This document shows positions 32,654 through 60,828 of a stretch of 64,000 nt of DNA, piece by piece. The translations under genes were made by a program, and so were the position numbers. Position 1 is the first letter of the stretch. Every line of letters starts with the position of its first letter. This DNA is from Enterococcus hulanensis. Its GTDB lineage: Bacteria > Bacillota > Bacilli > Lactobacillales > Enterococcaceae. A model generated the notes under the pieces. The model was given only the letters and a program-made list of their open reading frames with translations. It searched no databases and was not told the origin of the DNA. The stretch covers positions 22,857 to 86,856 of the forward strand of contig NZ_BJED01000020.1 in NCBI RefSeq assembly GCF_005405485.1, read 5' to 3'.

Positions 32654-32941
32654 CAGTAAATTAAGTAAATAGTGGAACAACAAACCATTAAACTATCAGC
32701 GTAAAAACAGATAGCAGAATGATATACGGCGCGACAATCAGACTCATTTTTTCTTAGGAAAAAAAGACTACATTAATAGGAGCAAGGATGTCAGTTCTGC
32801 TCTTCCCAGTTAACTAAGTAAAGCATGTAACACCAAAGTTTTATGATATCAGCGTAAAAACAGATAGCAGAATGATATACGGCGCGACAATCAGACTCAT
32901 TTTTTCATAGGAAAAAATGACTACATTAATAGGAGCAAGGA
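32654..32941 (+). repeat. Tandem duplicate of a hairpin repeat element between purK and purB
   Basis: Two units with a 153-bp period: the best-conserved 95-bp cores are 32694-32788 and 32847-32941, with only a few differences, and weaker similarity extends about 40 bp upstream of each. Each core has GATAGCAG, AATCAGACT, an A/T hairpin (32744-32767; 32897-32920) and ends in ATAGGAGCAAGGA. In the second unit this end supplies the purB ribosome site. The second hairpin is a perfect 10-bp stem (TCATTTTTTC/GAAAAAATGA). Confidence 0.9.
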
Positions 32942-32949
32942 GAAATATA

Positions 32950-34245
32950 ATGATACCTCGATATGCAAGAGCTGAAATGGCAAATATTTGGAGCGATGAA
33001 AATCGTTATAAGGCATGGCTGGAAGTGGAAATCTTAGCGGATGAAGCTTGGGCTGAGTTAGGAGAGATTCCAAAAGCCGATGTAGAAAAAATTCGTGCAA
33101 ATGCCGGATTTGATATTGATCGTATTTTAGAGATCGAACAATCAACAAAGCATGATGTGGTAGCTTTTACCCGTGCTGTTTCTGAAACTCTAGGAGAAGA
33201 AAGCAAGTGGGTTCATTATGGCTTGACCAGTACCGATGTGGTGGATACTGCGTACGGGTATTTATATAAACAAGCAAATGATATTTTGCGCCAAGATTTA
33301 CAAGACTTTTTAGCAATCATTGGTGAAAAGGCGAAAGAGCATAAAAACACTGTAATGATGGGGCGAACTCATGGTGTTCATGCGGAGCCAACAACATTTG
33401 GACTGAAATTAGCTACTTGGTATTCAGAAATGAAGCGAAATATCGAACGTTTCGAACATGCGGCTAAAGGTGTTGAAGCAGGAAAAATCTCAGGAGCGGT
33501 TGGTACGTTTGCGAATATTCCGCCATTTGTGGAAGAATATGTTTGTGAGAAATTAGGGATTCGACCACAAGAAATTTCAACACAGGTTTTACCTAGAGAT
33601 TTGCATGCGGAATACTTCTCAAGTCTTGCATTGATTGCAACATCAATCGAACGTTTTGCCACTGAAATCCGTGGTTTACAAAAATCTGAAACGCGTGAAG
33701 TCGAAGAATTTTTCGCGAAAGGGCAAAAAGGGTCTTCTGCTATGCCCCATAAACGCAACCCAATCGGTTCTGAAAACATGACTGGTTTGGCCCGAGTGGT
33801 GCGTGGACACTTGATCACTGCTTTTGAAGATGTAGCTTTGTGGCATGAACGTGATATTTCTCATTCTTCAGCGGAGCGGATCATTACACCAGATACGACT
33901 ATTTTAGTGGATTATATGCTGCATCGTTTCGGCAACATCGTTAAGAATTTGACGGTCTTCCCAGAAAATATGAAGCGCAACATGCAAGCTACTTTTGGTT
34001 TAATCTATAGCCAACGTGTGATGTTGAAGTTGATTGATAAAGGAATGACACGTGAACAAGCCTATGATTTAGTTCAACCCAAGACGGCTTATGCTTGGGA
34101 TCATCAAACACAATTCCGTCCGTTACTGGAAGACGATGAAAAAATCACCAGCATTTTATCAGCTGCGGATTTAGATGATGCGTTTGACTATAACTATCAT
34201 TTGAAAAACGTCGATAAAATTTTCGAACGTGTAGGAATCAAATAA
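32950..34245 (+). CDS. purB: Adenylosuccinate lyase
   Basis: A 431-residue fumarase/aspartase-superfamily lyase acting in both IMP and AMP synthesis (SAICAR and adenylosuccinate cleavage). The superfamily signature [16 protein letters not shown] is at about residues 263-278 and the catalytic-histidine region [14 protein letters not shown] is at about 139-152. AAGGAG is 8 nt before the ATG at 32950; this ribosome site is the 3' end of the repeat unit upstream. In-frame start candidates upstream lie inside the repeat. Confidence 0.97.
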
Positions 34246-34247
34246 AA

Positions 34248-34281
34248 AAAATCTCTTGCCGCTGGGCAAGAGATTTTTTTA
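34248..34281 (+). terminator. Terminator of purB, probably bidirectional
   Basis: A perfect AAATCTCTTGCC/GGCAAGAGATTT stem is followed by T residues on both strands, so it can also end the convergent small gene. Confidence 0.9.
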
Positions 34282-34282
34282 T

Positions 34283-34654
34283 TTATGCGTATGAATAGAC
34301 ATCTACAAAACAACTTTCGTGAAGCTTTGCTAAAAGGCAATCAATCAATTGATAGTCATAGTTCTCTGAATTCAGCAGGATTTCAATCCGATAAGAATTC
34401 TTTAGGAAAGAATGATCCTTAAATTGTCGAATAACTAATTTATCTTGGGCGGTATTAGCAAACTGCAGAGATTGCATAGCTTGAGATTGTCTTGGATGCA
34501 AAAGTTTTTTTAGGTTACGGTAGGAATAAAAGCTCGTGTTGCGATTAAGATTGTGGGTCGTATCTAATCCTAATAAAGCATTTAATAAATGTTGCTTATC
34601 TGTTTCGTTCATTGAGTTTAGAAATTTTTGAGCTGCTGCCGGCGCATCTAACAT
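34283..34654 (-). CDS. Unrecognised 123-residue protein
   Basis: Not recognised. The 123-residue protein is predicted soluble, with no signal peptide or membrane segment. The N-terminal half is helical and Leu/Asn-rich (KFLNSMNETDKQHLLNALLG), and the C-terminal half looks alpha/beta (YRIEILLNSENYDYQLIDCL). GGGGGA precedes the ATG on the minus strand and the gene ends at the shared terminator, so it appears real. It interrupts the pur block between purB and purC, transcribed opposite to both. Confidence 0.7.
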   Translation of the reverse strand: MLDAPAAAQKFLNSMNETDKQHLLNALLGLDTTHNLNRNTSFYSYRNLKKLLHPRQSQAMQSLQFANTAQDKLVIRQFKDHSFLKNSYRIEILLNSENYDYQLIDCLLAKLHESCFVDVYSYA

Positions 34655-34761
34655 AATAATTCCCCCATATATTTCATTCGAATTAAATATAGCACCATTT
34701 TCACAAAATGTAAACGCTCTCTTAGAGTGGGTTTGATTTTTAACTAAATAGACAAGGTTTT

Positions 34762-34806
34762 AAACACGAACATTAGATAGTTTATTTCATTATAATATCC
34801 GATAAA
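34762..34806 (+). promoter_or_regulatory. PurBox pair upstream of purC
   Basis: AAACACGAACATTAGA (CGAA core 34767-34770) is nearly identical to the purE PurBox. A weaker inverted core TCCG lies at 34798-34801. The first core is exactly 43 bp before the -35, the same distance as at purE. Confidence 0.75.
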
Positions 34807-34809
34807 TTG

Positions 34810-34838
34810 TTGAAATATTTTTTTCCTGTTGTTACACT
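34810..34838 (+). promoter_or_regulatory. Promoter of the purCSQLFMNHD operon
   Basis: TTGAAA (34810-34815) and TACACT (34833-34838) are separated by 17 bp. Confidence 0.65.
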
Positions 34839-34911
34839 AAAGATGAAATTGAGAAACGAACGATTTTTAATGATTTGTTTTAGAATGTTCATCAAAAGGG
34901 AGCGTTATGAC

Positions 34912-35628
34912 GTGGAAAAAGGAACTTTATTGTATGAAGGAAAAGCAAAACAATTATTCCGAACGGATGATCCAGAAGTTATCTGGGTCGAATATTTGAA
35001 CCAAGCGACAGCTTTGAACGGTGCTAAGAAAGACCAAATCAGCGGTAAAGGCGAACTTAACAATCAAATCACTGGATTGATTTTTGTTTTCTTGAAAAGT
35101 AAAGGAATTAAGAATCATTTTATCCAGCAACTTTCCACGAACGAACAGCTGATCCAAACAGTTGGAATTATTCCTTTAGAAGTAGTCGTGCGCAATGTCG
35201 CAGCGGGCAGCTTTTCAAAACGACTAGCTATTCCAGAGGGCACAGCTTTAAAAACACCTATCGTAGAGTTTTATTACAAAAACGACGAGTTGGATGATCC
35301 GATGGTCGTTGACGATCACATCAGAATTTTGGGAATTGCAACGACTGAGGAGATTGCGCAATTGCGTCAAATGGCTCTGGAAGTTAATGAGGCGCTGATC
35401 GAACTATTTGACTCGATAGACATTAAGCTGATTGATTTTAAGTTAGAATTTGGTCGTCAAAAAGACGGTACAATTTTATTGGCAGATGAAGTTTCGCCAG
35501 ACACTTGTCGTTTGTGGGATAAAAAGACGAACGATCATTTAGACAAGGATATTTATCGTCGCGACTTAGGCGACATCATTCCGGTTTACCAAGAAGTACT
35601 AAATAGATTAGAAAAGCGAGGAAAATAA
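34912..35628 (+). CDS. purC: Phosphoribosylaminoimidazole-succinocarboxamide synthase (SAICAR synthase)
   Basis: A 238-residue ligase joining CAIR and aspartate. The N-terminus EKGTLLYEGKAKQLF and the later motifs PLEVVVRNVAAGSF and DEVSPDTCRLWD are characteristic. AAGGGAG at 34896-34902 places the start at GTG 34912; the longer in-frame reading back to 34807 overlaps the promoter and is rejected. It leads the large pur operon. Confidence 0.96.
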   Translation: MEKGTLLYEGKAKQLFRTDDPEVIWVEYLNQATALNGAKKDQISGKGELNNQITGLIFVFLKSKGIKNHFIQQLSTNEQLIQTVGIIPLEVVVRNVAAGSFSKRLAIPEGTALKTPIVEFYYKNDELDDPMVVDDHIRILGIATTEEIAQLRQMALEVNEALIELFDSIDIKLIDFKLEFGRQKDGTILLADEVSPDTCRLWDKKTNDHLDKDIYRRDLGDIIPVYQEVLNRLEKRGK

Positions 35629-35630
35629 GG

Positions 35631-35885
35631 ATGTATTTTGTAAAAGTTTATGTAACGTATAAGGACTCTGTATTGGACCCACAAGGAGAAGCAGTAAAGG
35701 GCGCTGTTCACCGCTTAGGTTATGATGAAATTGAAGATGTTCGAATCGGCAAGTACTTCGAAATCAAAGTTGCTAAAAGCGATCGGCCAGTTGAAGAAAT
35801 GATTGAAGAAGTTTGCGACAAATTGTTAGCCAACGTCAATATGGAAACGTATCGTTATGAAATTTTAACATCGGAGGAAGTTTAA
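35631..35885 (+). CDS. purS: Phosphoribosylformylglycinamidine synthase subunit PurS
   Basis: An 84-residue small subunit of the three-part FGAM synthase complex (PurS-PurQ-PurL) of Gram-positive bacteria. It begins [20 protein letters not shown] and has the typical [19 protein letters not shown] region. It starts 2 nt after purC and is followed directly by purQ. Confidence 0.95.
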
Positions 35886-35886
35886 C

Positions 35887-36567
35887 ATGAAATTTGCGGT
35901 CATTGTGTTTCCTGGCTCAAATTGTGATCTGGATATGTACTGGGCAATGAAAGAAATCATGGGAGCTGATTGTGAGTATGTTCGCTATGATGCAGACAGC
36001 TTAGAGGGCTTCGATGGTGTGCTATTGCCGGGTGGGTTCTCTTATGGGGATTACTTGCGTTGTGGAGCGATTGCTCGTTTTGCCAATATTATGTCCGAAG
36101 TCATTCGTTTCGCGGAAGAAGGTAAGCCAGTTTTCGGTACGTGTAATGGATTCCAGATTTTGACAGAAGCCGGTCTATTACCAGGGGCTTTGCGTCGGAA
36201 TGAGTCATTAAAATTTATCAGCAAAATTACGCCGTTAAAAGTTGTGAACAACCAAACAAAATTTACATCCGAATATGCTGCAGATGAAGTAATCCAAATT
36301 CCTGTCGCCCATGGTGAAGGAAATTATTATTGTGATGAAGAAACTTTGGCTGAGTTGAAGGAAAATAATCAAATCGTTTTTACTTATGAAGGTGAAAATA
36401 TCAACGGCAGCGTGGAAAGCATCGCTGGAATTACCAACAAAGCAGGAAATGTTTTAGGAATGATGCCCCATCCAGAACGAGCAATGGAGAAATTGCTAGG
36501 TTCGGATGATGGCAAGAAATTCTTTGCTTCTATTTTAACTAATTTTGGAAAGGTGACTGCAAACTAA
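35887..36567 (+). CDS. purQ: Phosphoribosylformylglycinamidine synthase glutaminase subunit PurQ
   Basis: A 226-residue class I glutamine amidotransferase supplying ammonia to PurL. The nucleophile cysteine lies in [10 protein letters not shown] (near residue 87), with the catalytic His and Glu in MPHPERAME near 196. GGAGGAAG precedes the ATG. Its stop overlaps the purL ATG by one base. Confidence 0.97.
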
Positions 36568-38786
36568 TGATGAAATTAGAACCAACGGCTCAAGAAATCA
36601 AAGATCAGCGTATTTACGCTGGATGGGGTTTGACCGATGAAGAATATCGCTTAATTTCAGAAGACATTCTTGGTCGCCTGCCCAATTATACTGAAACAGG
36701 ACTATTCTCTGTAATGTGGAGCGAACACTGTTCTTATAAAAACTCAAAACCAGTTTTACGTAAATTCCCGTCCGATGGTCCGCAGGTTTTGCAAGGACCA
36801 GGTGAAGGCGCTGGGATCGTCGATATTGGCGATGGACAGGCAGTCGTTTTCAAAGCGGAAAGCCATAATCACCCATCAGCAGTTGAACCTTATGAAGGAG
36901 CGGCAACCGGTGTCGGCGGAATCATTCGCGATATCTTTAGTATGGGTGCTCGCCCGATTGCTATTTTAGATTCGCTGCGTTTTGGTGAATTAGATACACC
37001 TCGTACTAAGTATTTATTAGAAGAAATCGTCGCTGGAATCAGCGGATACGGCAACTGTATCGGAATTCCGACTGTCGGCGGTGAAGTTGCTTTTGATCCT
37101 TGTTATGAGGGAAATCCTTTAGTAAATGCTATGTGTGTGGGCTTGATGGACCATAAAGACATTCAAAAAGGACAAGCCAAAGGTGTCGGCAACTCAATCA
37201 TGTATGTTGGTGCAAAAACCGGCCGTGATGGGATTCATGGTGCGACCTTTGCCTCTGAGGAATTTGTTGAAGGAGAAGAACAACAACGTTCTGCCGTTCA
37301 AGTAGGCGATCCTTTTATGGAAAAATTATTATTGGAAGCGTGTCTGGAACTTATTCTGGAGCATTCTGATATTTTAGTCGGCATTCAAGACATGGGAGCA
37401 GCTGGGTTAGTTTCATCTAGTTCAGAGATGGCTTCTAAAGCTGGTTCAGGCTTGAAACTTTATTTGGATGATGTACCGCAACGGGAAACGAATATGACAC
37501 CATACGAAATGATGTTGTCAGAATCACAAGAACGGATGCTGATTTGTGTTGAACAAGGACACGAAGAAGAAGTTGTTGAATTATTCAAACGTTATGAGTT
37601 AGATGCTGTGACGATCGGTGAAGTTACAGATGATGGCATGTATAGCTTATATCACCATGGCGAAGAAGTAGCCAATTTACCAGTTGATGCTTTGGCCGAG
37701 GATGCTCCTGTTTATGAGAATGAAAAGAAAGAGCCTGCGCGTATTCAAGAATTTGCGAACATGGCAGTTTTCAAACCAGAAGTAAAAGATGCGAGTGAAA
37801 CATTGCTTGCTTTATTACAGCAGCCGACGATTGCTTCGAAGAGAATGATTTACGAAACGTATGATTCACAGGTTCGGACGAATACTGTCGTGCGTCCGGG
37901 AAGCGATGCAGCAGTAATGCGTGTGCGTGGAACGAATAAAGCGTTGGCGATGACGACTGACTGTAATGCTCGTTATCTTTATTTAAATCCAGAAGTTGGC
38001 GGACAAATTGCGGTTGCAGAAGCGGCTCGTAATATCGTAGCGTCTGGTGGACAGCCTTTAGCAATTACAGACTGCTTGAACTATGGTTCACCTGAAAAAC
38101 CAGAAGGCTTCTGGGAACTATGGACTTCAGCCGATGGAATATCTGAAGCATGTCGTACGTTGAATACACCAGTTATCTCTGGAAATGTTTCGATGTATAA
38201 CGAAACGAACGGTAAAGCGATCTACCCGACACCAATGATCGGTATGGTAGGTTTGATTGAAGACTTGAATCATATTACGACGCAAGAATTCAAACAAGCC
38301 GATGATTTGATCTATGTAATCGGAGAAACAAATGCTGACTTTAACGGCACAGAGATTCAAAAAATGCAAAAAGGGTTGATCGAAGGTAAATTGATGGACT
38401 TTGATTTAGCTGTTGAAAAAGAAAATCAAGAATTGGTACTTTCAGCAATCAAAGCCGGTTTAGTAGCAAGCGCGCATGATTGTGCAGAAGGCGGCTTAGC
38501 CGTGGCAATTGCAGAAGCAGCTTTTAATAATCAATTAGGTGTTGATGTTGAAGCAGCGATGCCGGTTGAGAATCTTTTTGCAGAAACCCAATCACGCTTC
38601 GTTTTATCGATTCATTCTGAAGATCAAGCAGCCTTTGAAGCTTTAGTCGGCGAAAAAGCAGTGAAAATCGGTAAAACAACCAATACTGGTGAATTGAAAG
38701 TAACTGCTGACGGCGGTGAAATCAAGGTTGCTACGCAAAAGGCAGAAGAATTATGGGAGGAAGCCATTCCATGTCTAATGAAGTAA
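36567..38786 (+). CDS. purL: Phosphoribosylformylglycinamidine synthase subunit PurL
   Basis: A 739-residue short-form PurL, the ATP-dependent synthetase subunit working with PurS and Pur[19 protein letters not shown] (near residues 50-67) and [21 protein letters not shown] (near 94) are typical. Two adjacent ATG codons at 36567 and 36570 could serve; the first overlaps the purQ stop (TAATG). The 3' end overlaps the purF ribosome site and start. Confidence 0.97.
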
Positions 38787-40210
38787 GAAGTTTAAATGAA
38801 GAATGTGGCGTATTTGGCATCTGGGGTCACCCAGATGCTGCTCGCGTCACTTATTTTGGCTTGCATAGTTTGCAGCATCGAGGTCAAGAAGGTGCTGGGA
38901 TTGTCAGTAATGACGGCGGGAATTTGATCAGCACTCGAGGATTAGGCTTGTTGTCAGAGGTTTTTAAAGACGAACGCCAATTAAATCAATTGACCGGCCA
39001 AGCAGCCATCGGTCATGTACGTTACGCAACGGCAGGAACCAGCAGTGTTGATAACATTCAGCCTTTCTTGTTTAATTTTTATGATGGAGACTTTGCTTTA
39101 GCCCACAATGGAAATTTGACGAATGCGAAAAGTTTGCGAAAAGAGCTGGAGGTCGACGGTGCGATTTTCCATTCGAACTCTGATACGGAAATCTTGATGC
39201 ATTTGATTCGCCGCAGTCAAAAGGAAACGTTATGTGAGCGAATGAAGGAAGCGTTAAACACCGTAAAAGGCGGTTTTGCTTATTTGATGTTAACTGAGGA
39301 ATCGATGGTTGCTGCTCTTGATCCGAATGGTTTTCGACCGTTGTCAATTGGTCAAATGGTCAATGGTGCTTATGTTGTCGCTTCTGAAACATGCGCATTA
39401 GAAGTTGTTGGCGCAAAATTTATCCAAGATGTTAATCCTGGTGAGATCATTACGATCAATGATGACGGATTGAAAGTGGAACGCTTCACTGAGGATACTC
39501 AGCATGCGATTTGTTCAATGGAATATATTTATTTTGCTCGACCTGACTCAAATATTGCCGGTGTCAATGTCCACAGCGCTCGAAAAAATATGGGACGCAT
39601 TTTGTCACATGAAGCAGAGATTGAGGCGGATATGGTTGTCGGTGTTCCTAACTCCTCACTATCAGCCGCGAGTGGTTATGCGGAGGAATCTGGTATTCCT
39701 TATGAGATGGGTTTGGTAAAAAATCAATATGTTGCAAGAACCTTCATTCAGCCAACCCAAGAATTGCGGGAGCAAGGTGTGCGTATGAAGCTTTCTGCTG
39801 TGCGGGGTGTCGTTGAAGGAAAACGGGTGATTATGGTTGATGATTCGATTGTACGAGGAACGACCAGCCGCCGAATTGTAAATCTTTTAAAAGAGGCCGG
39901 TGCGAAAGAAGTTCATGTAAGAATTGCTTCACCACCTTTACGCTATCCATGTTTTTACGGCATTGATATTCAAACACGCAAAGAATTGATCGCTGCGAAC
40001 CATTCAATCGAAGAAATTCGCGAAATGATCGGCGCAGACTCATTGTCATTCCTAAGCGAAGACGGATTGATCAATGCTATCGGATTAAATTTCGATGCAC
40101 CATATTCAGGATTATGTATGGCATATTTCAATGGAGATTATCCAACGCCGCTATATGATTATGAAGCACATTATCAAGCAACACTAAAAGAAAAAACTTC
40201 ATTTTATTAA
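38771..40210 (+). CDS. purF: Amidophosphoribosyltransferase PurF
   Basis: A 479-residue glutamine PRPP amidotransferase, first committed step of purine synthesis. GGAGG at 38756-38760 points to the ATG at 38771 and an 11-residue propeptide before catalytic Cys12 (ECGVFGIWG), as in B. subtilis PurF. The PRPP loop [16 protein letters not shown] is near residue 355. Of the four Fe-S cysteine ligands known in B. subtilis, CSMEY and PCFYG retain cysteine, but the C-terminal CxxC reads CMAY, so one ligand appears lost. The start lies inside purL by 16 bp. Confidence 0.96.
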
Positions 40211-40246
40211 AAATGAATACTTAATTATGAGTAAGGGGCGAATCGA

Positions 40247-41290
40247 GTGGGAAATGCATATTCTAAAGCTGGCGTTGATGTGGAAGCTGGTTATGAAGTA
40301 GTTGAACGCATCAAGAAGCATGTAAAGAGAACCGAACGTTTAGGTGTAATGGGAGCAATCGGCGGTTTCGGCGGCTGCTTCGATCTAAGTCAATTTCAAT
40401 TGAAAGAGCCTGTTTTAATTTCTGGAACAGATGGAGTAGGAACAAAATTAATGGTGGCGATCCAAGCAGATAAGCATGATACGATCGGGATCGATTGTGT
40501 CGCCATGTGTGTGAATGATATCGTGGCTCAAGGCGCAGAACCGTTATACTTTTTAGATTATATCGCGACAGGTAAAAATGTTCCCGCCCGATTAGAGCAA
40601 GTAGTTGCAGGCGTGGCAGAGGGGTGTGTTCAGGCTGGCGCTGCCTTGATTGGCGGAGAGACAGCAGAAATGCCTGGTATGTATGGCGAGGATGATTATG
40701 ATTTAGCTGGTTTTACAGTCGGTATTGCTGAGAAAAGTCAAATGATCACCGGCGAGAAAATCAAAGCTGGAGATATCTTAGTCGGTTTGCCTTCAACAGG
40801 GATTCATTCAAACGGCTATTCCCTTGTTCGAAAAATTTTCTTTGAAACACATAATTTTTCAGTTGACGAAAAATTACCGGAATTAGCTGAAACATTGGGA
40901 AATGAAATTTTAACGCCGACACGAATCTATGTTGAAGCGATTCTGCCTTTAGTCAAAAAAGAATTAGTGAACGGTATTGCACACGTAACTGGCGGAGGCT
41001 TTGTCGAAAACTTGCCGCGGATGCTGCCGGAAAATCTGGCTTGCGAAATCGAATTAGGTACATGGCCAGTTTTACCGATTTTTGATGCGTTAGCCAAATA
41101 TGGCGAAATTCCTGAAATGGAAATGTATGAGATCTTTAATATGGGAATCGGTATGGTCCTAGCGGTTGCACCAGAAAAATTAGCGGAGCTGCAGGCAGAT
41201 TTAAATGGACGAAACGAAGCGTCATTCGTTATTGGGAAAGTGACTGAAAAACAAGAAGCGGCGATTGTTTTCAAAGGAGCGAAGGCATGA
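40247..41290 (+). CDS. purM: Phosphoribosylformylglycinamidine cyclo-ligase (AIR synthetase)
   Basis: A 347-residue PurM of the same fold as PurL, closing the imidazole ring to give [23 protein letters not shown] at the start and [13 protein letters not shown] near residue 64 are characteristic, as is [16 protein letters not shown] near 184. GTG start at 40247 after AAGGGG. Its stop overlaps the purN ATG (ATGA). Confidence 0.96.
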
Positions 41291-43438: not shown

Positions 43439-44704
<1,266 letters not shown>

Positions 44705-45390: not shown

Positions 45391-45419
45391 TTGCTTTTTA
45401 AGTGAATATGTTGTAAATT
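45391..45419 (+). promoter_or_regulatory. Possible guaC-leader promoter
   Basis: TTGCTT and TAAATT are separated by 17 bp. Transcription would start inside the following hairpin, so this is uncertain. Confidence 0.3.
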
Positions 45420-45449
45420 ACATAGGGCGATAACGCCCTATGTTTTTTT
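45420..45449 (+). terminator. Strong hairpin terminator between the unknown gene and guaC
   Basis: A perfect ACATAGGGCG/CGCCCTATGT stem with ATAA loop is followed by T7. Confidence 0.92.
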
Positions 45450-45510
45450 ATCTGTCACGCTTTTCACAGTTTGCAGAGTGAAAAAACAAAAAAATGAAGA
45501 CATTAAAATG

Positions 45511-45522
45511 AGATAGCTATCT
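45511..45522 (+). promoter_or_regulatory. Palindrome beside the guaC ribosome site
   Basis: AGATAGCTATCT is a perfect 12-bp palindrome ending 7 nt before the GGAGG (45530-45534) of guaC. Flanking AAT and ATT could extend the pairing past one mismatch. Confidence 0.5.
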
Positions 45523-48819: not shown

Positions 48820-48841
48820 AAGGATGTAAATAAGAATAATT

Positions 48842-48990
48842 GTTAGGTGAGGCTCCTATATGGACACAGGCTGCTGCCCAAAAATGTCGAGAGACGCCAA
48901 TGGGTAGAACAGGGATCATCGTGAAGGTGATTCATAACGTAGCTGACAGATTTTGTCTACGCCCTATAGTGCTAAAGCTCGACGATGAAC
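48842..48990 (+). ncRNA. M-box (ykoK) magnesium riboswitch
   Basis: Highly conserved M-box blocks appear in order: GTTAGGTGAGGCTCCTATAT, GGACACAGGCTGCTGCCCA, GTCGAGAGACGCCAATGGGT, AACAGGGATCATCG, CATAACGTAGCTGACAGATT, TTGTCTACGCCCTATAGTGC and AAAGCTCGACGATGAAC. In this class, high Mg2+ favours the downstream terminator. The regulated gene is mgtA. Confidence 0.97.
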
Positions 48991-49003
48991 ATGAATGAAT
49001 TTT

Positions 49004-49037
49004 CGCGCGTGCTCATTTTCGAGTGCGCGCTTTTTTG
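49004..49037 (+). terminator. M-box expression-platform terminator
   Basis: GCGCGTGCTC pairs with GAGTGCGCGC (two G-T pairs) over ATTTTC, followed by T6. Confidence 0.92.
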
Positions 49038-49045
49038 CGAGTTTT

Positions 49046-49585
49046 TCTTCCTGCTTTAGCAGGTTAGAAAAATCGTATGCGAAACGAGAATAGAATTAAC
49101 TTTTTCGTTTTTTGAAAAAGTTAACACCTCGAGACGAGTTAGCTGCCAGTCCAACTTTTCGCAGTTGCTCAAAGTTTGGTGGCAAAAAAAAGGATTTTAA
49201 ATCAGATAATAGGGCAGATACTTAGTTGGATGGTATGCGTGGCGAGAATCAGACTTGTTTTTCGTGGTTTTCGAAAAATGAATCCATTAAAACGAGATAG
49301 CTGCTAGTTCAACTTTCTTCCTGCTTTAGCAGGTTAGAAAAATCGTATGCGAAACGAGAATAAAATTAACTTTTTCGTTTTTTGAAAAAGTTAATACCTC
49401 GAGACGAGATAGCTGCCAGTCCAACTTTTCGCAGTTGCTCAAAGTTTGGTGGCAAAAAAAGGATTTTAAATCAGATAATAGGGCAGATACTTAGTTGGAT
49501 GGTATGCGTGGTGAGAATCAGACTTATTTTTCGTGGTTTTCGAAAAATAAATCCATTTGAAACGAGATAGCTGCCGTTCCAACGT
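49046..49585 (+). repeat. Tandem 270-bp repeats with four hairpins in the mgtA leader
   Basis: Unit 1 (49046-49315) and unit 2 (49316-49585) differ at about ten positions. Each holds CCTGC-TTTA-GCAGG (49050-49063; 49320-49333), hairpin A TTAACTTTTTC/GAAAAAGTTAA (49096-49124; 49366-49394), a CCAACTTT...AAAGTTTGG pairing, then hairpin B (49255-49281; 49524-49550). Hairpin B changes from two G-T pairs in unit 1 to A-T and T-A pairs in unit 2. Related to the purB, pdhC and IMPase leader repeats. Confidence 0.93.
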
Positions 49586-49670: not shown

Positions 49671-49826
49671 ATGGATTATGAAGATAGTCGACCGAAAGAT
49701 AAATATAACGGGGCGACTTCAGTTGTCCTGAATTTTAGGAGGAACAACTATGATGAACAAAAAAAACCTTCTTGCTCGCAAAATCAACAAAGATCAAGAA
49801 TTGAAAAAATTAGCGATCCTATCTGA
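49671..49826 (+). CDS. 51-codon upstream ORF overlapping mgtA, candidate leader peptide
   Basis: An ATG ORF with AAAGGA and GAGG upstream encodes a 51-residue peptide that starts MDYEDSRPKD, rich in acidic residues and proline early on, and has no recognised domain. Codons 23-24 (AGG AGG) are the mgtA ribosome site and the ORF runs 77 bp into mgtA in another frame. Enterobacterial MgtL leader peptides with early acidic/Pro codons sense low Mg2+ through ribosome destabilisation; a similar role here is inference. It could also be chance. Confidence 0.4.
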   Translation: MDYEDSRPKDKYNGATSVVLNFRRNNYDEQKKPSCSQNQQRSRIEKISDPI

Positions 49827-52359: not shown

Positions 52360-52393
52360 ATTGAAAAGCTAGCTCATTTAGCCCAATACTATA

Positions 52394-52431: not shown

Positions 52432-52657
52432 TGAAAAATTACAACAAATGAATAGCCTCAAGTACCTCTCACAAATTCCATTTAAGTCCTTTTTTAAAAG
52501 CAAACGAGTGAAATAATTATAAAATATCGATTTATCAAGGCACTCGACCGCTACTATTTAATAGACAAATTTTTTTTGAAAAAAACAAGCTGCGCGTGGT
52601 TTCACAAGGTTAAAAAGTGAAACGCTTCAATTCGTTCAGAATCGGTGAGCAAGTTTG
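52432..52657. other. Intergenic region upstream of the pdh promoter
   Basis: No gene is seen. It contains a 7-bp inverted repeat GTTTCAC/GTGAAAC (52599-52623) and the imperfect palindrome TGAAACGCTTCA (52618-52629), which resembles a CcpA cre site but is shorter than the 14-bp consensus. These lie 29-60 bp before the predicted -35. Confidence 0.45.
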
Positions 52658-52686
52658 TTGTCAATTGAATATAAAAATGCTAATTT
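52658..52686 (+). promoter_or_regulatory. Predicted promoter of pdhABCD
   Basis: TTGTCA (52658-52663) and TAATTT (52681-52686) are separated by 17 bp, giving an 80-nt leader. Confidence 0.55.
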
Positions 52687-52750
52687 AGAGAAGAAGGGGC
52701 AATAGCAATAATACAGATTGACTTGCTGTTGCACTGATAACAAGACTTAA

Positions 52751-53884
<1,134 letters not shown>

Positions 53885-53886
53885 TC

Positions 53887-54864
53887 ATGGCACAAAAAAC
53901 AATGATCCAAGCAATTACAGATGCCTTAGCTCTGATGCTTGAAAAAGACAAAGAAGTTTTAATTTTCGGTGAAGACGTTGGTAAAAACGGCGGGGTTTTC
54001 CGTGCGACTGAAGGTCTTCAAGAAAAATTCGGTGAAGATCAAGTTTTCGATACACCATTGGCTGAATCTGGAATTGCCGGACTTGGTTTTGGTTTAGCCT
54101 TGCAAGGCTTCCGTCCAGTTCCTGAAATTCAATTCTTTGGGTTTGTGTTTGAAGCGATGGACGAGATCGTTGGACAAATGGCTCGTACGCGTTATCGTAT
54201 GGGCAATACACGTAACTTGCCAATCACGATTCGCGCACCATTCGGCGGCGGCGTGCATACACCAGAACTTCACTCAGACAACTTAGAAGGCTTGATGGCT
54301 CAATCTCCAGGCTTGCGCGTGGTTATTCCATCTAATCCTTATGATGCTAAAGGTCTATTGATCGCATCGATTCGCAACAATGACCCAGTAGTATTTTTAG
54401 AGCACATGAAGCTTTACCGTTCATTCCGTGAAGAAGTGCCAGAAGGAATTTACGAAGTACCGTTGGATAAAGCAGCCGTTACTAAAGAAGGAACAGATGT
54501 TTCAATCATTACTTACGGTGCGATGGTTCGTGAGGCAATTAAAGCCGCGGACAACTTAGCAAAAGAAAACATTAACGCAGAGATTATTGACTTGCGTACA
54601 GTAGCTCCCCTTGATGTTGAAACAATCATCAAATCAGTTGAAAAAACTGGTCGCGTGGTCGTTGTTCAAGAAGCACAAAAACAAGCAGGCGTTTCTGCAC
54701 AAGTAATCTCAGAAATTTCAGAACGGGCAATTCTTTCATTGGAAGCACCGATCGGACGGGTGTCTGCTCCAGATACGATTTTCCCATTCGGACAAGCAGA
54801 AGGTATTTGGTTGCCAAATGCAGCAGATATCGAAGCAAAAGTAAAAGAAATCGTAGAATTTTAG
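53887..54864 (+). CDS. pdhB: Pyruvate dehydrogenase E1 beta subunit
   Basis: A 325-residue transketolase-fold subunit pairing with PdhA. Characteristic segments are [20 protein letters not shown] near residue 27 and [20 protein letters not shown] near 117. It starts 2 nt after pdhA. Unlike the other operon junctions, its 3' end is followed by a 119-nt gap holding a hairpin repeat before pdhC. Confidence 0.96.
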
Positions 54865-54869
54865 CAACC

Positions 54870-54975
54870 AGTTTCACTTCCTGCTTTAAAAGGTTTGTGA
54901 AATGGTATATGACACAACAATCAAACTTATTTTTTCGATTTTTGAAAAAATAATTACTGAAATATGATAGGAGCG
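54870..54975 (+). repeat. Single hairpin repeat element between pdhB and pdhC
   Basis: It matches the mgtA-leader unit from CTTCCTGCTTT onward, then GTATATGACACAACAATCAA aligns with the GTATGCG...GAGAATCAGA block. The hairpin TTATTTTTTC/GAAAAAATAA (54927-54953) is a perfect 10-bp stem. It ends GATAGGAGCG, like the purB copies, and this supplies the pdhC ribosome site. Confidence 0.88.
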
Positions 54976-54983
54976 ATAAAAAC

Positions 54984-56633
54984 ATGGCTTACCAATTTAA
55001 ATTGCCGGACATCGGTGAAGGCATTGCGGAAGGCGAGATCGTGAAGTGGTTCGTCAAAGCAGGCGACACGATCAATGAAGATGACACCTTATTAGAAGTA
55101 CAAAACGACAAATCAGTGGAAGAAATTCCATCTCCAGTTACAGGAACGGTTAAAAAAATCATCGTAGACGAAGGCACAGTTGCCAACGTCGGTGATGTTT
55201 TGGTTGAAATCGATGCCCCTGGACATGAAGATAACGAAGGCGACTCTGGTGTGGCGGCAGAATCACAAACACCGGAATCTCCAGCGGCTGAACCTGCTGA
55301 CGCTAGCGCAAGCAGCGAAGCTAATGATGGCGGCGGCGTTTTCCAATTCAAATTACCAGATATCGGTGAAGGAATTGCAGAAGGCGAGATCGTTAAATGG
55401 TTCGTCAAAGCGGGCGACAAGATCGAAGAAGACGATACCCTATTAGAAGTACAAAATGACAAATCAGTGGAAGAAATTCCATCTCCAGTCACAGGAACAA
55501 TCAAAAAAATCATCGTAGACGAAGGCACAGTTGCCAACGTCGGTGATGTATTGGTTGAAATTGACGCACCAGGACATAATGATTCCAGTGCTGCTTCAAC
55601 AGAATCAGCAGCTCCAGCGGAAGCACCAAAAGCTGAAGCAAAAGGCGATTCTTCAGTAGTAGAAGCCAGCAATCCAGACAAACGCGTCTTAGCGATGCCG
55701 TCTGTTCGTCAATATGCGCGTGAAAAAGACGTGGATATTACTCAAGTAACTGCTACAGGAAAAGGCGGGCGCGTCGTTAAAGAAGACATCGATGCATTTG
55801 TTTCTGGCGGCGGACAAGCAGCCCCTGCAAAAGCAGAAGCACAAACAACTGAAACGACAGCAGCAGCTTCGAACGCAGCGCCAGCGAAAGCTGAAAAACC
55901 TGCGCAACCATTTACTTCAAATATGGGTGAAATGGAAACGCGTGAGAAGATGACACCTACACGTAAAGCGATCGCAAAAGCAATGGTCAACAGCAAACAT
56001 ACTGCTCCGCATGTAACCTTGCATGATGAAGTAGAAGTTTCTAAGCTTTGGGATCACCGTAAGAAATTCAAACAAGTGGCTTTGGATAATGGCACGAAAT
56101 TGACCTTCTTACCATATGTAGTGAAAGCTTTGACTGCGACAGTGAAGAAATACCCAGTCTTGAACGCGTCAATCGATGATGCTGCTCAAGAAATTGTTTA
56201 TAAAAATTACTACAACATCGGTATTGCAACAGATACTGATCATGGATTGTATGTACCGAATGTGAAGAATGCTGATACTAAAGGCATGTTCAAGATCGCA
56301 GACGAAATCAACGAAAAAGCTGCTCTGGCACATGATGGCAAATTAGCTGCTGATGATATGCGTAACGGCACAATCACGATCTCAAATATCGGTTCAGTAG
56401 GCGGCGGCTGGTTCACTCCAGTTATCAACTACCCTGAAGTTGCGATCCTTGGTGTCGGAACGATTGCGCAACAACCAATCGTGAACGATGAAGGCGAATT
56501 AGCGGTTGGCCGTGTGATGAAACTTTCATTAAGCTTCGACCATCGAATCGTTGATGGCGCGACAGCGCAAAAAGCCATGAACAATATCAAGCGTTTGTTG
56601 GCTGATCCAGAATTATTATTAATGGAAGGATGA
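54984..56633 (+). CDS. pdhC: Dihydrolipoamide acetyltransferase (PDH E2) with two lipoyl domains
   Basis: A 549-residue E2 core. Two lipoyl domains (about 2-80 and 119-197) carry lipoylated K43 and K160 in [14 protein letters not shown] and are nearly identical. Ala/Glu-rich linkers separate them from the E1/E3-binding domain (about 235-272, [13 protein letters not shown]) and the catalytic domain, with active-site FDHRIVDG (H520). TAGGAG from the upstream repeat serves as ribosome site. Confidence 0.97.
54993..55577 (+). repeat. Intragenic direct repeat encoding the two lipoyl domains
   Basis: 54993-55226 and 55344-55577 (351-bp offset) are highly similar in DNA and differ by only about three residues, with long identical stretches such as around K43/K160. 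This indicates recent duplication or gene conversion. Confidence 0.92.
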
Positions 56634-56640
56634 TAAAATC

Positions 56641-58047
56641 ATGGTAGTTGGAGATTTTGCCATTGAATTAGATACAGTTGTAATCGGTGCTGGACCCGGC
56701 GGCTACGTTGCCGCCATCCGCGCCGCTGAAATGGGACAGAAAGTAGCGATCATTGAACGAGAATATATCGGCGGTGTTTGTTTAAACGTCGGCTGTGTTC
56801 CGTCAAAAGCGTTGATTTCTGCTGGACATCATTATCAAGATTCGCTTGATTCATCGATGTTTGGTGTGACTAGTGAAAATGTAAAGCTAGACTTTGCTAA
56901 AACCCAAGATTGGAAAGAAAACGAAGTCGTTAATAAATTAACGACTGGAGTAAAATTCCTGTTGAAGAAACACAAAGTAGAAATCATTGAAGGAGAAGCC
57001 TTCTTCGTAGATGACAAAAACTTGCGTGTGATTCATCCTGATTCTGCTCAAACTTATTCTTTCAATAATGCGATCGTCGCAACAGGTTCTCGTCCAATCG
57101 AGATTCCTGGCTTCAAGTTTGGCGGACGTGTGTTGGATTCTACAGGCGGTTTAGCGTTAGAAGCTGTTCCGGAAAAACTTGTGATTATTGGTGGCGGCGT
57201 TATCGGTGCTGAATTAGGCGGCGCATATGCCAATCTAGGTGCTGAAGTCACGATTCTTGAAGGAACACCACAAATTTTACCGACTTACGAAAAAGACATG
57301 GTGCAGCTTGTAGAAAAAGACTTCAAGCAAAAAGGCATCAAAGTCGTTACCTCTGCGATGGCCCGTGAAGCTGTTGATAATGGCGATAACGTGACTGTTC
57401 ATTATGAAGTTGACGGAAAAGAAGAAACGATCGATGCAGATTACGTAATGGTAACAGTTGGGCGTCGTCCAAACACAAACGACATGGGCTTGGAACAAGC
57501 TGGTGTTGAAATGACAGACCGCGGTCTAATCACAGTTGATAAACAAGGACGCACAAACGTACCTAGCATCTACGCAATCGGCGATATCGTTCCTGGTGCT
57601 GCTTTAGCTCATAAAGCCAGCTACGAAGCTAAAATCGCTGCTGAAGCGATTTCTGGCAAGAAAGTTGCCGTTGACTATAAAGCTATGCCAGCAGTTGCCT
57701 TTACTGATCCAGAATTAGCGACTGTCGGTATGACGATCAAAGATGCGAAGGAAGCCGGATTGGAAGCGAAAGCCTTCAAATTCCCATTCTCTGGTAATGG
57801 TCGTGCACTATCATTAGGCAAGACAGAAGGCTTTATCCGTTTGGTAACTACGGTTGAAGACAATGTTATCATCGGCGGTCAAATCGCAGGTGTTGGTGCC
57901 AGTGATATGATCTCTGAATTAGCCTTAGCTATCGAATCAGGCATGAATGCGGAAGATATCGCTCTAACAATTCATCCACATCCATCATTAGGTGAGATCG
58001 TAATGGATGCTTCTGAGTTAGCATTAGGTATGCCGATCCATATTTAA
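56641..58047 (+). CDS. pdhD: Dihydrolipoyl dehydrogenase (PDH E3)
   Basis: A 468-residue FAD disulfide oxidoreductase that reoxidises the E2 lipoyl groups with NAD+. The FAD loop [20 protein letters not shown] is at 13-32, the redox cysteines are C47 and C52 ([12 protein letters not shown]), the NAD loop is [20 protein letters not shown], and the catalytic His is in HPHPSLGE (445-452). GGAAGGATG precedes the ATG. It ends the pdh operon. Confidence 0.96.
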
Positions 58048-58050
58048 AGC

Positions 58051-58091
58051 AAAAAGCCAAAATCCACTTAACAGGATTTTGGCTTTTTTTA
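58051..58091 (+). terminator. Terminator of the pdh operon
   Basis: AAAAAGCCAAAATCC pairs with GGATTTTGGCTTTTT over an 8-nt loop, followed by more T residues. Confidence 0.93.
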
Positions 58092-58127
58092 TAATCAAAA
58101 TGCTTAACACTTTCCGCGAATCGACCT

Positions 58128-58763
58128 TTAAACCGCCGTAATTGCCACCATTGCCCCCATCAGCCAATCTAGCTGTGAGATCATTACTTGCGTTTGCTTG
58201 GCTACAGGATCACTTTTTACTTCCTTTATTTTCGCCTCCAGCATTTTCCGTTCTGGCTTTTCAATGTACTTTTTCAAGTAAGAGGATTTTTTTAAAAGGA
58301 TCGCCAACTTTAGACCGTCATAATCTAAGCAATTTAAATTCTCTAGGCGAGCAACTAATTGCGCGATCGTTTTTTCCTTTGCTAAGTAAGAAAGCGTATT
58401 TCCATCTGTTTCGACAGTAATTTCTCTAAGGTCGATTAATGAGTTGCGAGTTTGAGCGACCAACAGCTTCAAGTCTTTTTCGAAAAAGGTTGCGCCGTAA
58501 GCCGTGGCAAGTTTGTCGATGCGTTTCTTTTTCAGCTGAGTGATTTTTTCAAATAGGCAATTCAGATATTCCAGTTCTTCTGGCAGTTGATCCGTTAAAA
58601 TGATAATTTCCTTTTGTTCAAGTTCGATTACCTGCGCTTCCTGTAAATCAAGCAGTCCTGCCATGACCAGACACATGCCAACATAATAATTAATAGAAGA
58701 AATTTTTCCATTTCGATTCATGGTAAAGAGCAGGTATTGTTGTGATAAGTTTAAATTTTTCAT
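58128..58763 (-). CDS. GPP34-like (Golgi phosphoprotein 3 domain) protein
   Basis: A 211-residue soluble protein. LNLSQQYLLFTMNRNGKISS at the start and YVGMCLVMAGLLDLQEAQVI resemble the GPP34/GOLPH3 domain, which binds phosphoinositides in eukaryotes and has an unclear role in bacteria. AAAGGAGC precedes the ATG on the minus strand. It stands alone between the pdh terminator and an Rgg-type gene. The family call is by motif resemblance only. Confidence 0.65.
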   Translation of the reverse strand: MKNLNLSQQYLLFTMNRNGKISSINYYVGMCLVMAGLLDLQEAQVIELEQKEIIILTDQLPEELEYLNCLFEKITQLKKKRIDKLATAYGATFFEKDLKLLVAQTRNSLIDLREITVETDGNTLSYLAKEKTIAQLVARLENLNCLDYDGLKLAILLKKSSYLKKYIEKPERKMLEAKIKEVKSDPVAKQTQVMISQLDWLMGAMVAITAV

Positions 58764-58968
58764 TGTCTCGCTCCTTTATTCTTTTGATCTAAGTATAAGC
58801 TTGGAGTGGAAAAATCTATTTTTTCGAAACAATATTTTCAAAATTCTGATTTTCTCGCTTTTTTTTCATGGTATTCTAAGAATGCAGAAACAAAAGTTTC
58901 CTTTTTGCTAGCTCAATCTGCTAGCAAGAGAATAATTAAATGAAAAAAGCGACAAGGAGCTGAATCCA

Positions 58969-59829
58969 ATGACTGGAAAATTTTTCCAAGAAATCAGAGA
59001 AAAGAAAAATCAATCAATCATGAATACGTCTGAGGGGATCGTAACACCTCAGTTTTTAAGAAAATACGAACGGGAAAATGGTGATATTCGTTTTTCGAAT
59101 TTAGTCCAGTTATTAAATCGGCTGAATACCACCATCGATGAGTTCATCTTTGAGATTGAAGAAAGTTTGGATATTTGGTTGTATGAAATCGAAGAAGAAA
59201 TTGATCAAGCCTATCATGCCGGAAATTCATTTTCCTTGAAGAAATTTGTGCAAAAACAAGAAAAACTCTATCAGCAAACAAAGGAGGAACGCTTCTTGTT
59301 TGCGGCACTTATCGGCAAACGTTTCTATAATTATATTTTTTTGCCAAGCTATACAGTTGATTTAGCGCCGATCACCAATTATTTAAGAGAGACGGAGACA
59401 TGGGGGAAGTTTGAATTTTTCTTGATCACTTATAATAGTGATCTTTTCGAGCCGGAAGAAGCTTTCTTTTACGCCAATCAATTAGTAACACAACAGCATG
59501 GCAGCTTTGAAGTTCGAAAGTGGCGCTTCGATGCTGTCTTGCATCTTGTCCGTTATTTAATTGACGAGAATCAGTTGGCTTCGGCAGAAAAAATTATGTT
59601 AGCCTATTTAAAAAACTTGACACCGAATCGTGATTTGAAATATCTTCATCATGACCTGTACGCTAAATTTGTCTATGGGCTGCTTTTGATCAAAAAGAAT
59701 GATCCAAGAGGAGCGCGGCAGTGCGAGCGAGTCATTGAGATATTTGTAGAGGATTGCGGTTATTTAAACTATGGTAATCGTCTGAATATTGTCTATCAAT
59801 CAACTTTAGCGCAAGCTAAGCAGTCGTAA
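58969..59829 (+). CDS. Rgg/GadR/MutR-family transcriptional regulator
   Basis: A 286-residue protein with an N-terminal helix-turn-helix of the Rgg type (about 5-62: FFQEIREKKNQ... FLRKYERENGDIRFSNLVQL ... FIFEIEE) and an all-helical C-terminal repeat domain that in Rgg proteins binds short peptides or ligands. AAGGAG precedes the ATG. It is followed after 18 nt by an acetyltransferase gene without a terminator. No small hydrophobic pheromone ORF was recognised next to it. Confidence 0.88.
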   Translation: MTGKFFQEIREKKNQSIMNTSEGIVTPQFLRKYERENGDIRFSNLVQLLNRLNTTIDEFIFEIEESLDIWLYEIEEEIDQAYHAGNSFSLKKFVQKQEKLYQQTKEERFLFAALIGKRFYNYIFLPSYTVDLAPITNYLRETETWGKFEFFLITYNSDLFEPEEAFFYANQLVTQQHGSFEVRKWRFDAVLHLVRYLIDENQLASAEKIMLAYLKNLTPNRDLKYLHHDLYAKFVYGLLLIKKNDPRGARQCERVIEIFVEDCGYLNYGNRLNIVYQSTLAQAKQS

Positions 59830-59847
59830 TAAGCGAGGAGCAGATAT

Positions 59848-60453
59848 ATGAATGAAATTTTAGGTTTTGAAGCATCAAGATCAGGTGAAATGTATGATGA
59901 CCTTTCGCCTGTATTTAGCGAAATGCGGAAGCAAGCAGTGAAGGCGACGACTGAGTACAATGCGCTGTATGGAAAGGATGAGCAGAAGAGAGAAGCGATT
60001 TTGCGAAATATTCTAGGCTCAGCAGGCGAGTCCCCCTTCTTTGAACCAGATTTTCGTTGTGAATTTGGAAAAAATATCCATCTTGGAGATCGGTTTTTCG
60101 CTAATTTTGACTGCATCTTGTTAGATGGCGGAGAAATCATGATTGGCAATGATGTATTATTTGGTCCGCGGGTAGGGATTTTTACAACGAATCATGCGAC
60201 TGATCCAGAAGAACGAGCGGCAGGTGGCTGTTATTCGAAAAATGTCGTGATAGAAGATAATGTTTGGGTAGGTGCCAACGTTACCATCAATCAAGGTGTG
60301 ACGATTGGGAAAAATACAATCATCGGGTCTGGCAGCGTGGTAACAAAAAATATTCCGGATAATGTAATCGCAGTCGGAAATCCTTGTCGTGTGTTAAGAG
60401 AGATCACTGAACAAGACAAAACGGGTTATCAATCTAAGCGTACGCTAACTTAA
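59848..60453 (+). CDS. Sugar O-acetyltransferase (LacA/Maa type)
   Basis: A 201-residue left-handed beta-helix hexapeptide acetyltransferase. The N-terminal mac domain (about 10-60) precedes hexapeptide repeats, with GPRVGIFTTNHATDPEERAA carrying the likely catalytic histidine and VWVGANVTINQGVTIGKNTI in the helix. It probably acetylates maltose, galactoside or a related sugar. CGAGGAG precedes the ATG. Co-transcription with the Rgg-type gene is likely. Confidence 0.9.
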   Translation: MNEILGFEASRSGEMYDDLSPVFSEMRKQAVKATTEYNALYGKDEQKREAILRNILGSAGESPFFEPDFRCEFGKNIHLGDRFFANFDCILLDGGEIMIGNDVLFGPRVGIFTTNHATDPEERAAGGCYSKNVVIEDNVWVGANVTINQGVTIGKNTIIGSGSVVTKNIPDNVIAVGNPCRVLREITEQDKTGYQSKRTLT

Positions 60454-60517
60454 AAGCGGCTTTAATCAGCGCATGGATGATTCTATGGTAAACTAATTTC
60501 GAATGGAGTGTGGATCA

Positions 60518-60787
60518 ATGGCAAATTATGGTTACCCAATCGATGAGGATTGGACACATGAGGAGATCACGACCGTTATCAATTTCTTGAATTTAGTCGA
60601 GGAAGCGAACGAAAATGGTGTAGATAAAGAAGCTTTTTTAAACGGCCATAAAAAATTTAAAACAGTAGTCAAAAGTATCGGAGAAGAAAAACGAATCGGT
60701 CGAGAATTTGAAGCGGTCAGCGATTATTCAATCTATCGCACGGTACAAAAGGCTAAAGCAGCGACTACGAAACGTTTTAAAATGTAA
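60518..60787 (+). CDS. UPF0223 family protein
   Basis: An 89-residue protein of the UPF0223 (YktA) family, of unknown function. The N-terminus ANYGYPIDEDWTHEEITTVI and the end YSIYRTVQKAKA are typical. GGAG lies 10 nt before the ATG at 60518; the in-frame ATG at 60503 precedes that site. It neighbours an IMPase-family gene, as yktA and yktC do in Bacillus. Confidence 0.9.
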   Translation: MANYGYPIDEDWTHEEITTVINFLNLVEEANENGVDKEAFLNGHKKFKTVVKSIGEEKRIGREFEAVSDYSIYRTVQKAKAATTKRFKM

Positions 60788-60790
60788 ATT

Positions 60791-60828
60791 TGTTAGCTAT
60801 AGGTAAGAAGAATCAGACTTATTAGGAG
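60791..60828 (+). repeat. Hairpin-less remnant of the dispersed repeat before the IMPase gene
   Basis: GTTAGCTATAGG followed by AGAATCAGACTTAT and then TAGGAG matches the flanks of the purB and mgtA repeat units, but the TTTTTC/GAAAAA hairpin is missing. The last six bases are the ribosome site of the next gene. Confidence 0.6.

Follow-up and report, generated by a model that had tools for sequence, protein, structure and literature searches.

Insertion sequences of the IS200/IS605 type and REP/RAYT elements carry hairpin ends whose foot bases recognise a short cleavage word, and they insert 3' of a fixed word. Several small structured repeats are described in the literature. The pneumococcal BOX repeat is modular and present in about 125 copies, and BOX, RUP and SPRITE are all over-represented between convergent genes and considered parasitic (PMC3049150). 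In enterococci, EFAR (Enterococcus faecalis repeats) is a family of miniature inverted-repeat transposable elements (MITEs; PMC3733652), and Efa-1 of E. faecalis is a 163-bp intergenic pair of adjacent stem-loops with 65 (18) copies (PMC2267715); a word find in a MITE review (PMC10969869) returned no Enterococcus or EFAR entry. Group IIC introns insert at intrinsic terminators (PMC4424553), and the TAACTGA heptamers of Beggiatoaceae are forward-oriented 7-nt tandem repeats at ribosome-binding sites (RBSs), where they apparently replace the Shine-Dalgarno (SD) sequence (PMC4679880). Here, we analyse a repeat with two predicted hairpins from a 64,000-nt stretch of Enterococcus hulanensis (NZ_BJED01000020.1; the whole stretch is called the window, and coordinates are window positions). 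The repeat lies either in an SD, split as AGGA|G and restored, or behind a predicted terminator, and is probably a non-autonomous mobile element.

Unit anatomy and covariation

An earlier note on this DNA had reported a module recurring at purB (two copies), pdhC (one) and mgtA (a double unit, duplicated). The observation is confirmed, by a repeat search and by a covariance model that finds four units at mgtA, and the family is larger than first described. The model, R1, spans 79 positions and was built on copies from the search loci and the window; from 39 copies one odd copy was removed, and the remaining 38, less two degenerate and three near-duplicate rows, gave the 33 aligned cores. In the genome of the window (4.74 Mb, 47 contigs), R1 matches at least 148 places at E ≤ 1 and at least 137 at E ≤ 1e-3; all its counts per genome are lower bounds, as no more than 150 candidates were scored in each genome, and fewer, under stricter filters, in the family and order scans. 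We analysed 145 of the 148 matches, grouped as 83 sites (the three omitted have E 0.08-0.16), and 69 stretches were read at both junctions. The window copies at purB, mgtA and pdhC match on the plus strand with E 1e-11 to 3e-17; as R1 was trained partly on them, these matches are not independent, and a model-independent DNA search with the second purB copy alone found 27 places in the genome, itself included.

The unit consists of two hairpins, P1 and P2. On the sense strand it starts with the 5' arm of P1 (P1a), TG.NAG followed by 7 variable bases, then a loop and the 3' arm (P1b), which is complementary to P1a apart from a single unpaired G at its 5' side. Next come TACG or TGCG, a short variable foot and YGAN. 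P2 follows, with an ATTTTT/AAAAAT stem, and the unit closes with N'GAR and its end, which is either AGGA or TAGC. The P1 loop has two sizes among the 93 full units, short in 32 (16-20 nt) and long in 61 (62-68 nt, usually opening TTTTCGCAG), giving unit lengths of about 110 or 155 nt.

Both hairpins carry compensatory changes. For P2, 93.8% of cells in the 33 copies are paired and 8 of the 13 pairs show two-sided change, among them the C-G/T-A column behind the TCA/TGA to TTA/TAA stem swap between the second purB copy and pdhC that had been pointed out before. The Y-R and N-N' positions, which lie on either side of a GA/AG mismatch, co-vary. In 500 shuffles, such scores were never reached on four of the five measures, and were reached 5 times on the fifth. 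P1 was measured at 52 tandem joints, with the 5' arm set by the end of the preceding unit alone and pairing ignored (of 58 joints, the 6 with spacings above 120 nt were dropped): the mean is 11.23 of 12 pairs, against 9.64 with partners shuffled (maximum 10.13 in 2000). The covariance-model scan that the earlier note had proposed returns many matches in this genome and in relatives, with placement far from random; neither random placement or orientation nor a lack of compensatory substitutions, which the note had named as outcomes that would count against its proposal, was found.

Two ends are tied to two kinds of site

The 83 sites fall into two main classes according to the end of their 3'-most unit. 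In class I (45 of 83) the unit ends AGGA|G, and at 44 of these sites an open reading frame (ORF) of at least 60 codons starts 6-12 nt downstream; the 45th is followed at +10 by a 50-codon frame that resembles ribosomal protein L33 (named by eye). As a control, 446 of 1680 GGAG words in the same loci have an ORF start 3-15 nt further on. In class II (32 of 83) the end is TAGC-like and no site (0/32) is followed by an ORF start, and the remaining 6 sites have other ends, 3 of them with an ORF start.

The 5' junctions separate the classes in turn. Among intact 5' ends, 21 of the 29 in class II lie directly behind a strict intrinsic terminator, compared with none of the 17 in class I and 13 of 918 random positions, and 13 of the 17 class I junctions with an accepted arm begin after GGA. 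Note that this P1a finder took the best complement within 3 kb, so that weak true arms were missed and 36 of the 83 sites had no accepted arm. When the finder was limited to 85 nt, 20 of 83 sites lacked an arm; class II was terminator-adjacent at 21 of 31 sites (4 more behind a bare T-run, 6 other), class I at 0 of 30 and the control at 18 of 1238, and 16 of the 30 class I arms began after GGA. In Rfam scans of 20 class II loci, five arrays are preceded by a T-box match, at a distance of about 17-140 nt, and another array starts where the small RNA Ref84 ends.

In the window, both classes are represented on the plus strand. The second purB copy (32789..32941; R1 match 32864-32941, E 3.1e-17) is a complete class I unit, in which P1a TGTCAGTTCTGCT, a 64-nt loop, P1b AGCAGAATGATA, P2 and the AGGA end follow one another, with P1 paired at 12 of 12 positions. 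Its last four bases and one further base form AGGAG, the purB SD (32938..32942), upstream of the start codon at 32950 (a mechanical ORF list begins the same frame at 32917). The first purB copy (32654..32788, class I; core 32711-32788; found by the repeat search and by R1, E 3.5e-16) has its 5' P1 arm lost or replaced, and its terminal AGGA abuts the second copy. The class I copy in the pdhB-pdhC gap (54866..54972; R1 match 54894-54972) has a short loop, 10 of 12 pairs in P1 and the end TAGGA|G, which is the SD of pdhC. The mgtA array is class II and follows an M-box riboswitch (48832..48996; RF00380, 141.8 bits), starting at the M-box terminator (~49004-49036, positive in the terminator test). 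R1 places its four units inside 49064-49572, all with the end TAGC: unit 1 (49036..49143, short loop) comes directly after the terminator T-run, and is followed by unit 2 (49144..49301, long loop), unit 3 (49302..49413, short loop, P1 paired at 8 of 12 positions with the joint arm) and unit 4 (49414..49571, long loop), after which a truncated P1 arm remains. The copies had been taken as a single module set before genes in sense. One family they are, but the mgtA units belong to the second class and do not supply the mgtA ribosome site, and the sense placement before genes holds for the AGGA|G class; at 8 of the other 38 sites the next called ORF is on the opposite strand, and there the units keep instead to the direction of the terminator in front of them.

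The two bases before the foot and those at the end vary together. Among 116 units (29 of the 145 have no TATNNG and are left out of the count), the combinations are GC/GC in 50, AC/GGA in 43, GC/GGA in 7, AC/GC in none and others in 16 (Fisher 5e-21); the last include CC/GG (3) and GT/AC (1), which also pair. Variant units beside class II arrays (L096, C9:35413-35759; L101; L105) have a near-palindromic foot/end helix, ATATGTCGACGA ... AGTCGAC|TGCGAG, in which the end again pairs with the foot. Apparently nested units were also seen, inserted in another unit's CTTTT stretch or P1a (L134, C38:3225 and 7632; C5:75265; C5:162758).

Filled, empty and decayed sites

Relatives contain the same sites with and without the repeat (states were sorted by eye as filled, empty or remnant). 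Between gyrB and gyrA, the genome of the window reads TGAGGA|unit|GGATCAATTTGG, the right flank beginning GGATC; among the 20 genomes of the genus the site holds a unit in 7 and is empty in the other 13, of which 11 read TGAGGAGGATC, and it holds one in 2 of 10 genomes of genus g4. The site between an ABC ATPase and its permease is filled in 8, empty in 9 and remnant or unclear in 5 of 22 genomes of genus g13, and the mraY site is filled in 4, a remnant in 1 and empty in 5 of 10 genomes of g4, with no mraY unit in the 19 g1 genomes that have a match. Of nine relatives, four are empty at pstS, two filled (one diverged), two remnants and one unclear; at pstB mainly 3'-end remnants are found. Full purB copies occur, among 30 genomes, in the genome of the window only, with likely 3'-end remnants in a few relatives, and the mgtA arrays occur in this genome and in one other of the genus (G007), with decayed forms in several others. 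Strains of E. raffinosus differ by whole units: a PTS gene has 2 units in F162_2 and 1 in CX012922, and cydD has 3 in CX012922 and 1 each in F162_2 and HG-5.

Decayed copies can keep their 3' end. In g13, copies at the ABC site have a mispaired P1 in three genomes (G073, G078, G080) and lack P2 in a fourth (G076), with the AAGGAG end retained. Comparison of two loci at this site (L161 and L157) shows a P2 hairpin precisely lost in one species, with P1 and the SD end intact.

R1 matches occur in all 20 genomes of the genus, that of the window included (at least 6 to at least 144 each), in 43 of 105 genomes of the family (5 of 17 genera) and in 25 of 395 of the order, all 25 in one family. One exact pattern further identified E. 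avium, E. raffinosus, E. malodoratus, E. devriesei, E. viikkiensis, E. pseudoavium and E. songbeiensis as carriers, along with two strains not assigned to a species. Ten plasmid records contain units, all from Enterococcus and 6 of them megaplasmids of 0.9-1.2 Mb. Phage or viral carriage was rejected, as searches of phages, and of viral contigs with two exact patterns, gave no units. A record labelled as an E. faecalis plasmid (LR962543.1, 217113-220117) has a PTS region ~80% identical to that of the genome of the window, with one diverged unit before the IIC gene.

Within the window, R1 gives 8 further matches up to E 10, two of them 25-nt fragments; the remaining matches, six in number and with E 4e-4 to 0.54, are possible decayed copies. 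The stretch 45407..45518 (plus strand, E 0.0098) is a likely class II copy, the match taking in a terminator, CATAGGGCGATAACGCCCTATGTTTTTTT, and the end reading GAGATAGCT. A probable class I copy lies on the minus strand (19378..19456, E 7e-4), with an AAGGA|G end before a minus-strand ORF starting at 19367, and a possible one on the plus strand (17199..17267), with a TTAGGA|G end before an ORF at 17279 and a weak match (E 0.54). Three weak matches (9451-9526, 30959-31030 and 40163-40237; E 4e-4 to 0.015), 8 to 47 nt 5' of an ORF start, are possibly old copies or chance hits driven by the SD. The remnant proposed earlier 5' of an IMPase-like gene (60808..60828, plus strand) has the core letters AAGAATCAGACTTATTAGGAG fused to TTAGGAG; it is too short for the model and gives no R1 match up to E 10, so that its likely identification comes from these letters.

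Two neighbouring features deserve mention. Between the class II array and mgtA (49671-49826) lies a 51-codon ORF that begins MDYEDSRPK and overlaps the mgtA start; many relatives have an acidic or proline-rich start at this place, e.g. MDHEDSRPK or MEHPSPSRQ (by eye), which is reminiscent of a leader peptide of the MgtL type behind an M-box. A purine riboswitch is found at 28794-28891 (RF00167, 68.5 bits).

Origin of the repeat and comparison with known systems

The earlier note had offered translational control, mRNA processing or a mobile, MITE-like origin as explanations, and its interpretation is partly supported: of the three, mobility fits best, given the filled and empty sites, and translational control is not supported. 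As we picture it, landing would be directed by short sense-strand words, AGGAG or a terminator T-tract, acting at the DNA or the RNA level. The hairpin foot beside the unit's 3' end may help to choose between SD and terminator, as the identity of two of its bases goes with that of the end (GC with GC, AC with GGA). The terminal AGGA of the unit would restore the SD and make landing there harmless, arrays would later expand and contract by unequal recombination, and copies would decay with the 3' end left behind because it is by then the gene's RBS. Both the nucleic acid that is inserted and the mobilising enzyme belong to the conjectural part of this mechanism. Whether these units stand for a new mobile class that homes on SDs, inserting at AGGA^G in sense and giving the gene a new RBS, with two paired foot-base changes turning it to terminators, we propose only tentatively, our expectation leaning somewhat the other way.

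Several observations weigh against mobility of this kind. The best identity between units at different sites has a median of 77% and a maximum of 90% among the 93 full units (52 of the 145 units, without an accepted P1a, are left out), and therefore dispersal in this genome is not recent. Covariation counts are not independent events, because the copies share descent, and structure kept in copies that differ by ~23% could reflect selection for function. Placed class I 5' arms follow GGA in just the 13 of 17 or 16 of 30 cases given above, although many of the other placements in the 85-nt count look like chance placements. The 3' side of empty sites is less precise in class II than in class I, and the next called ORF is on the opposite strand at 8 of the 38 sites not ending GGA|G. 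No copy with a transposase or reverse transcriptase inside was noticed, but a full unit had to have a loop of 15-21 or 60-70 nt to be accepted, so that a long insert would have gone uncounted. An autonomous copy with an ORF between P1a and P1b was likewise looked for and none noticed, the long 'loops' being apparently due to pairing by chance, to stretches of masked N or to nesting of units. Eight of the 20 genus genomes lack Y1 transposase genes, among them five with many matches (lower bounds: G003, 144; G007, 82; G009, 132; G014, 48; G018, 82), and therefore a Y1 transposase is not required now. Only weak R1 matches (best E 0.013) lie near 18 of 25 Y1 loci, other transposase families not having been searched for. 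An IS200-type transposase was on both counts rejected as the mobiliser.

Could the units instead be cis-regulatory RNAs, selected for control of translation or mRNA stability of the downstream gene? Their sense orientation, the SD at their 3' end, the many copies between genes of one strand and the strong compensatory changes despite ~23% difference between sites, suggesting a structure kept over time, all agree with such a role. However, the downstream genes (gyrA, purB, pdhC, glmU, a dnaE-like gene, ABC transporters; names by eye) share no visible pathway, sites appear and vanish among relatives (gyrA, ABC, mraY, pstS), the g13 ABC site keeps its SD end with P1 mispaired or P2 gone, and class II arrays lie behind predicted terminators, where many transcripts would stop. 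The predicted probability of an unpaired SD, 0.40 for 43 class I sites, hardly differs from the 0.41 of 89 other SDs (p 0.96), and sequestration of the SD was rejected on this absence of a difference. A gathering-level Rfam scan of the window and 20 class II loci placed nothing on the units, only riboswitches, T-boxes and small RNAs beside the arrays, and at E ≤ 1 the only two hits in four loci were weak, one to PyrR (E 0.62) and one, antisense, to a plastid intron (E 0.17); identity with a riboswitch or another known RNA was rejected accordingly. Because the predicted accessibility is unchanged, the host genes are unrelated and presence differs among relatives, a translational switch is not supported, and we regard cis-regulation as the general explanation as improbable; individual copies may nevertheless have a function.

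Other explanations concern what kind of mobile element this might be. Spread at the RNA level by a reverse transcriptase, in the manner of group IIC introns at terminators, would refine the mobile reading and seems to us rather unlikely, though the strongest of these proposals: the units are structured, they lie in sense at SD sites, and class II occupies the position where group IIC introns insert (PMC4424553), but single-stranded DNA hairpins would yield the same covariation, and the units have no group II intron match at Rfam gathering scores. The nearest known kind is the EFAR type, miniature insertion sequences whose landing sites are hairpins, in many cases terminators. A 2007 abstract reportedly describes EFAR as modular 170-bp two-hairpin elements whose empty sites are stem-loops. 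A named enterococcal MITE family (PMC3733652) and the size and paired stem-loops of Efa-1 (PMC2267715) argue for membership, which we leave undecided and consider unlikely, as SD targeting is absent from the EFAR descriptions consulted, and 200 kb of a genome whose group may contain E. faecalis (G080) holds one R1 match at E ≤ 1, whereas another repeat, GGGACAGAAGCG..GCTTCTGCTCCC with a terminator-like hairpin, occurs there several times and is a better EFAR candidate. This other repeat, possibly EFAR, was seen at five G080 loci (L404, L410, L411, L412, L413) as GGGACAGAAGCG..GCTTCTGCTCCCACCGTTTAT with a terminator-like hairpin. That the family is a form of the BOX repeat is very improbable: the modular structure and comparable numbers (PMC3049150), and a short letter resemblance, ATAC....GAAAATCA, to boxC, are set against the preference of BOX for convergent genes, as 45 of 83 sites here are RBSs and the next ORF lies on the opposite strand at 8 of 83, and R1 found no match outside one family (25 of 395 order genomes, under the stricter filters and in a sample that may lack S. 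pneumoniae).

If the mobile reading is true, the repeat shows how parasitic DNA colonises the interior of operons, by landing in the RBSs of gyrA, purB and pdhC and restoring them. In one enterococcal group it explains much intergenic sequence for which there was no other explanation, and it cautions that covariation 5' of genes need not mean regulation. The co-varying foot and end of the two classes suggest a target-choice code that can be tested, with the empty sites as ready substrates.

Compared with the IS200/IS605 and REP/RAYT ends, the foot-end pairing of the units is reminiscent, but no link to a transposase was found and Y1 is absent from five match-rich genomes. EFAR is reportedly modular with stem-loop targets; here, landing at terminators is a property of class II (21/29) and not of class I (0/17). 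Like EFAR and Efa-1, the units are enterococcal, intergenic, similar in size and made of two adjacent hairpins (PMC2267715, PMC3733652), P1 and P2 with long units of about 155 nt corresponding to the two adjacent stem-loops of ~165 bp in EFAR/Efa-1. In contrast, the EFAR-like letters in G080 are unlike the units, and SD landing, AGGA restoration and the foot-end code are not among the EFAR traits in the sources consulted. The earlier suggestion of a MITE-like origin holds for mobility but not for the terminal inverted repeats, of which the units have none: their tips are TG[TC]CAG or TGCGAG and TAGGA or TAGC, and the partner of the 5' tip is the internal P1b rather than the 3' tip. No general target duplication was seen either; AGGA stands on both sides of the gyrA unit, yet is the unit's own end, and class II flanks read a T-run on the left and TAGC on the right. 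With BOX, RUP and SPRITE the units share being small, structured, non-coding and considered parasitic; BOX and RUP, however, carry target duplications and terminal inverted repeats, the latter not seen in the units, and all three are over-represented between convergent genes rather than placed in sense at SDs or terminator ends (PMC3049150). Insertion at terminators is common to group IIC introns and class II but not class I, more than half of the repeat sites being SDs, and Rfam found no intron domains on the units. Insertion into the SD has no precedent in the literature surveyed, seen in part (BOX, the Beggiatoaceae heptamers, Efa-1 and the EFAR mention found), and SD homing is the part of our proposal that is new in this respect. 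A parallel in position is offered by the TAACTGA heptamers, which are likewise forward-oriented at RBSs (PMC4679880); there the repeat is 7 nt long, whereas the SD here comes from a unit of about 110 or 155 nt.

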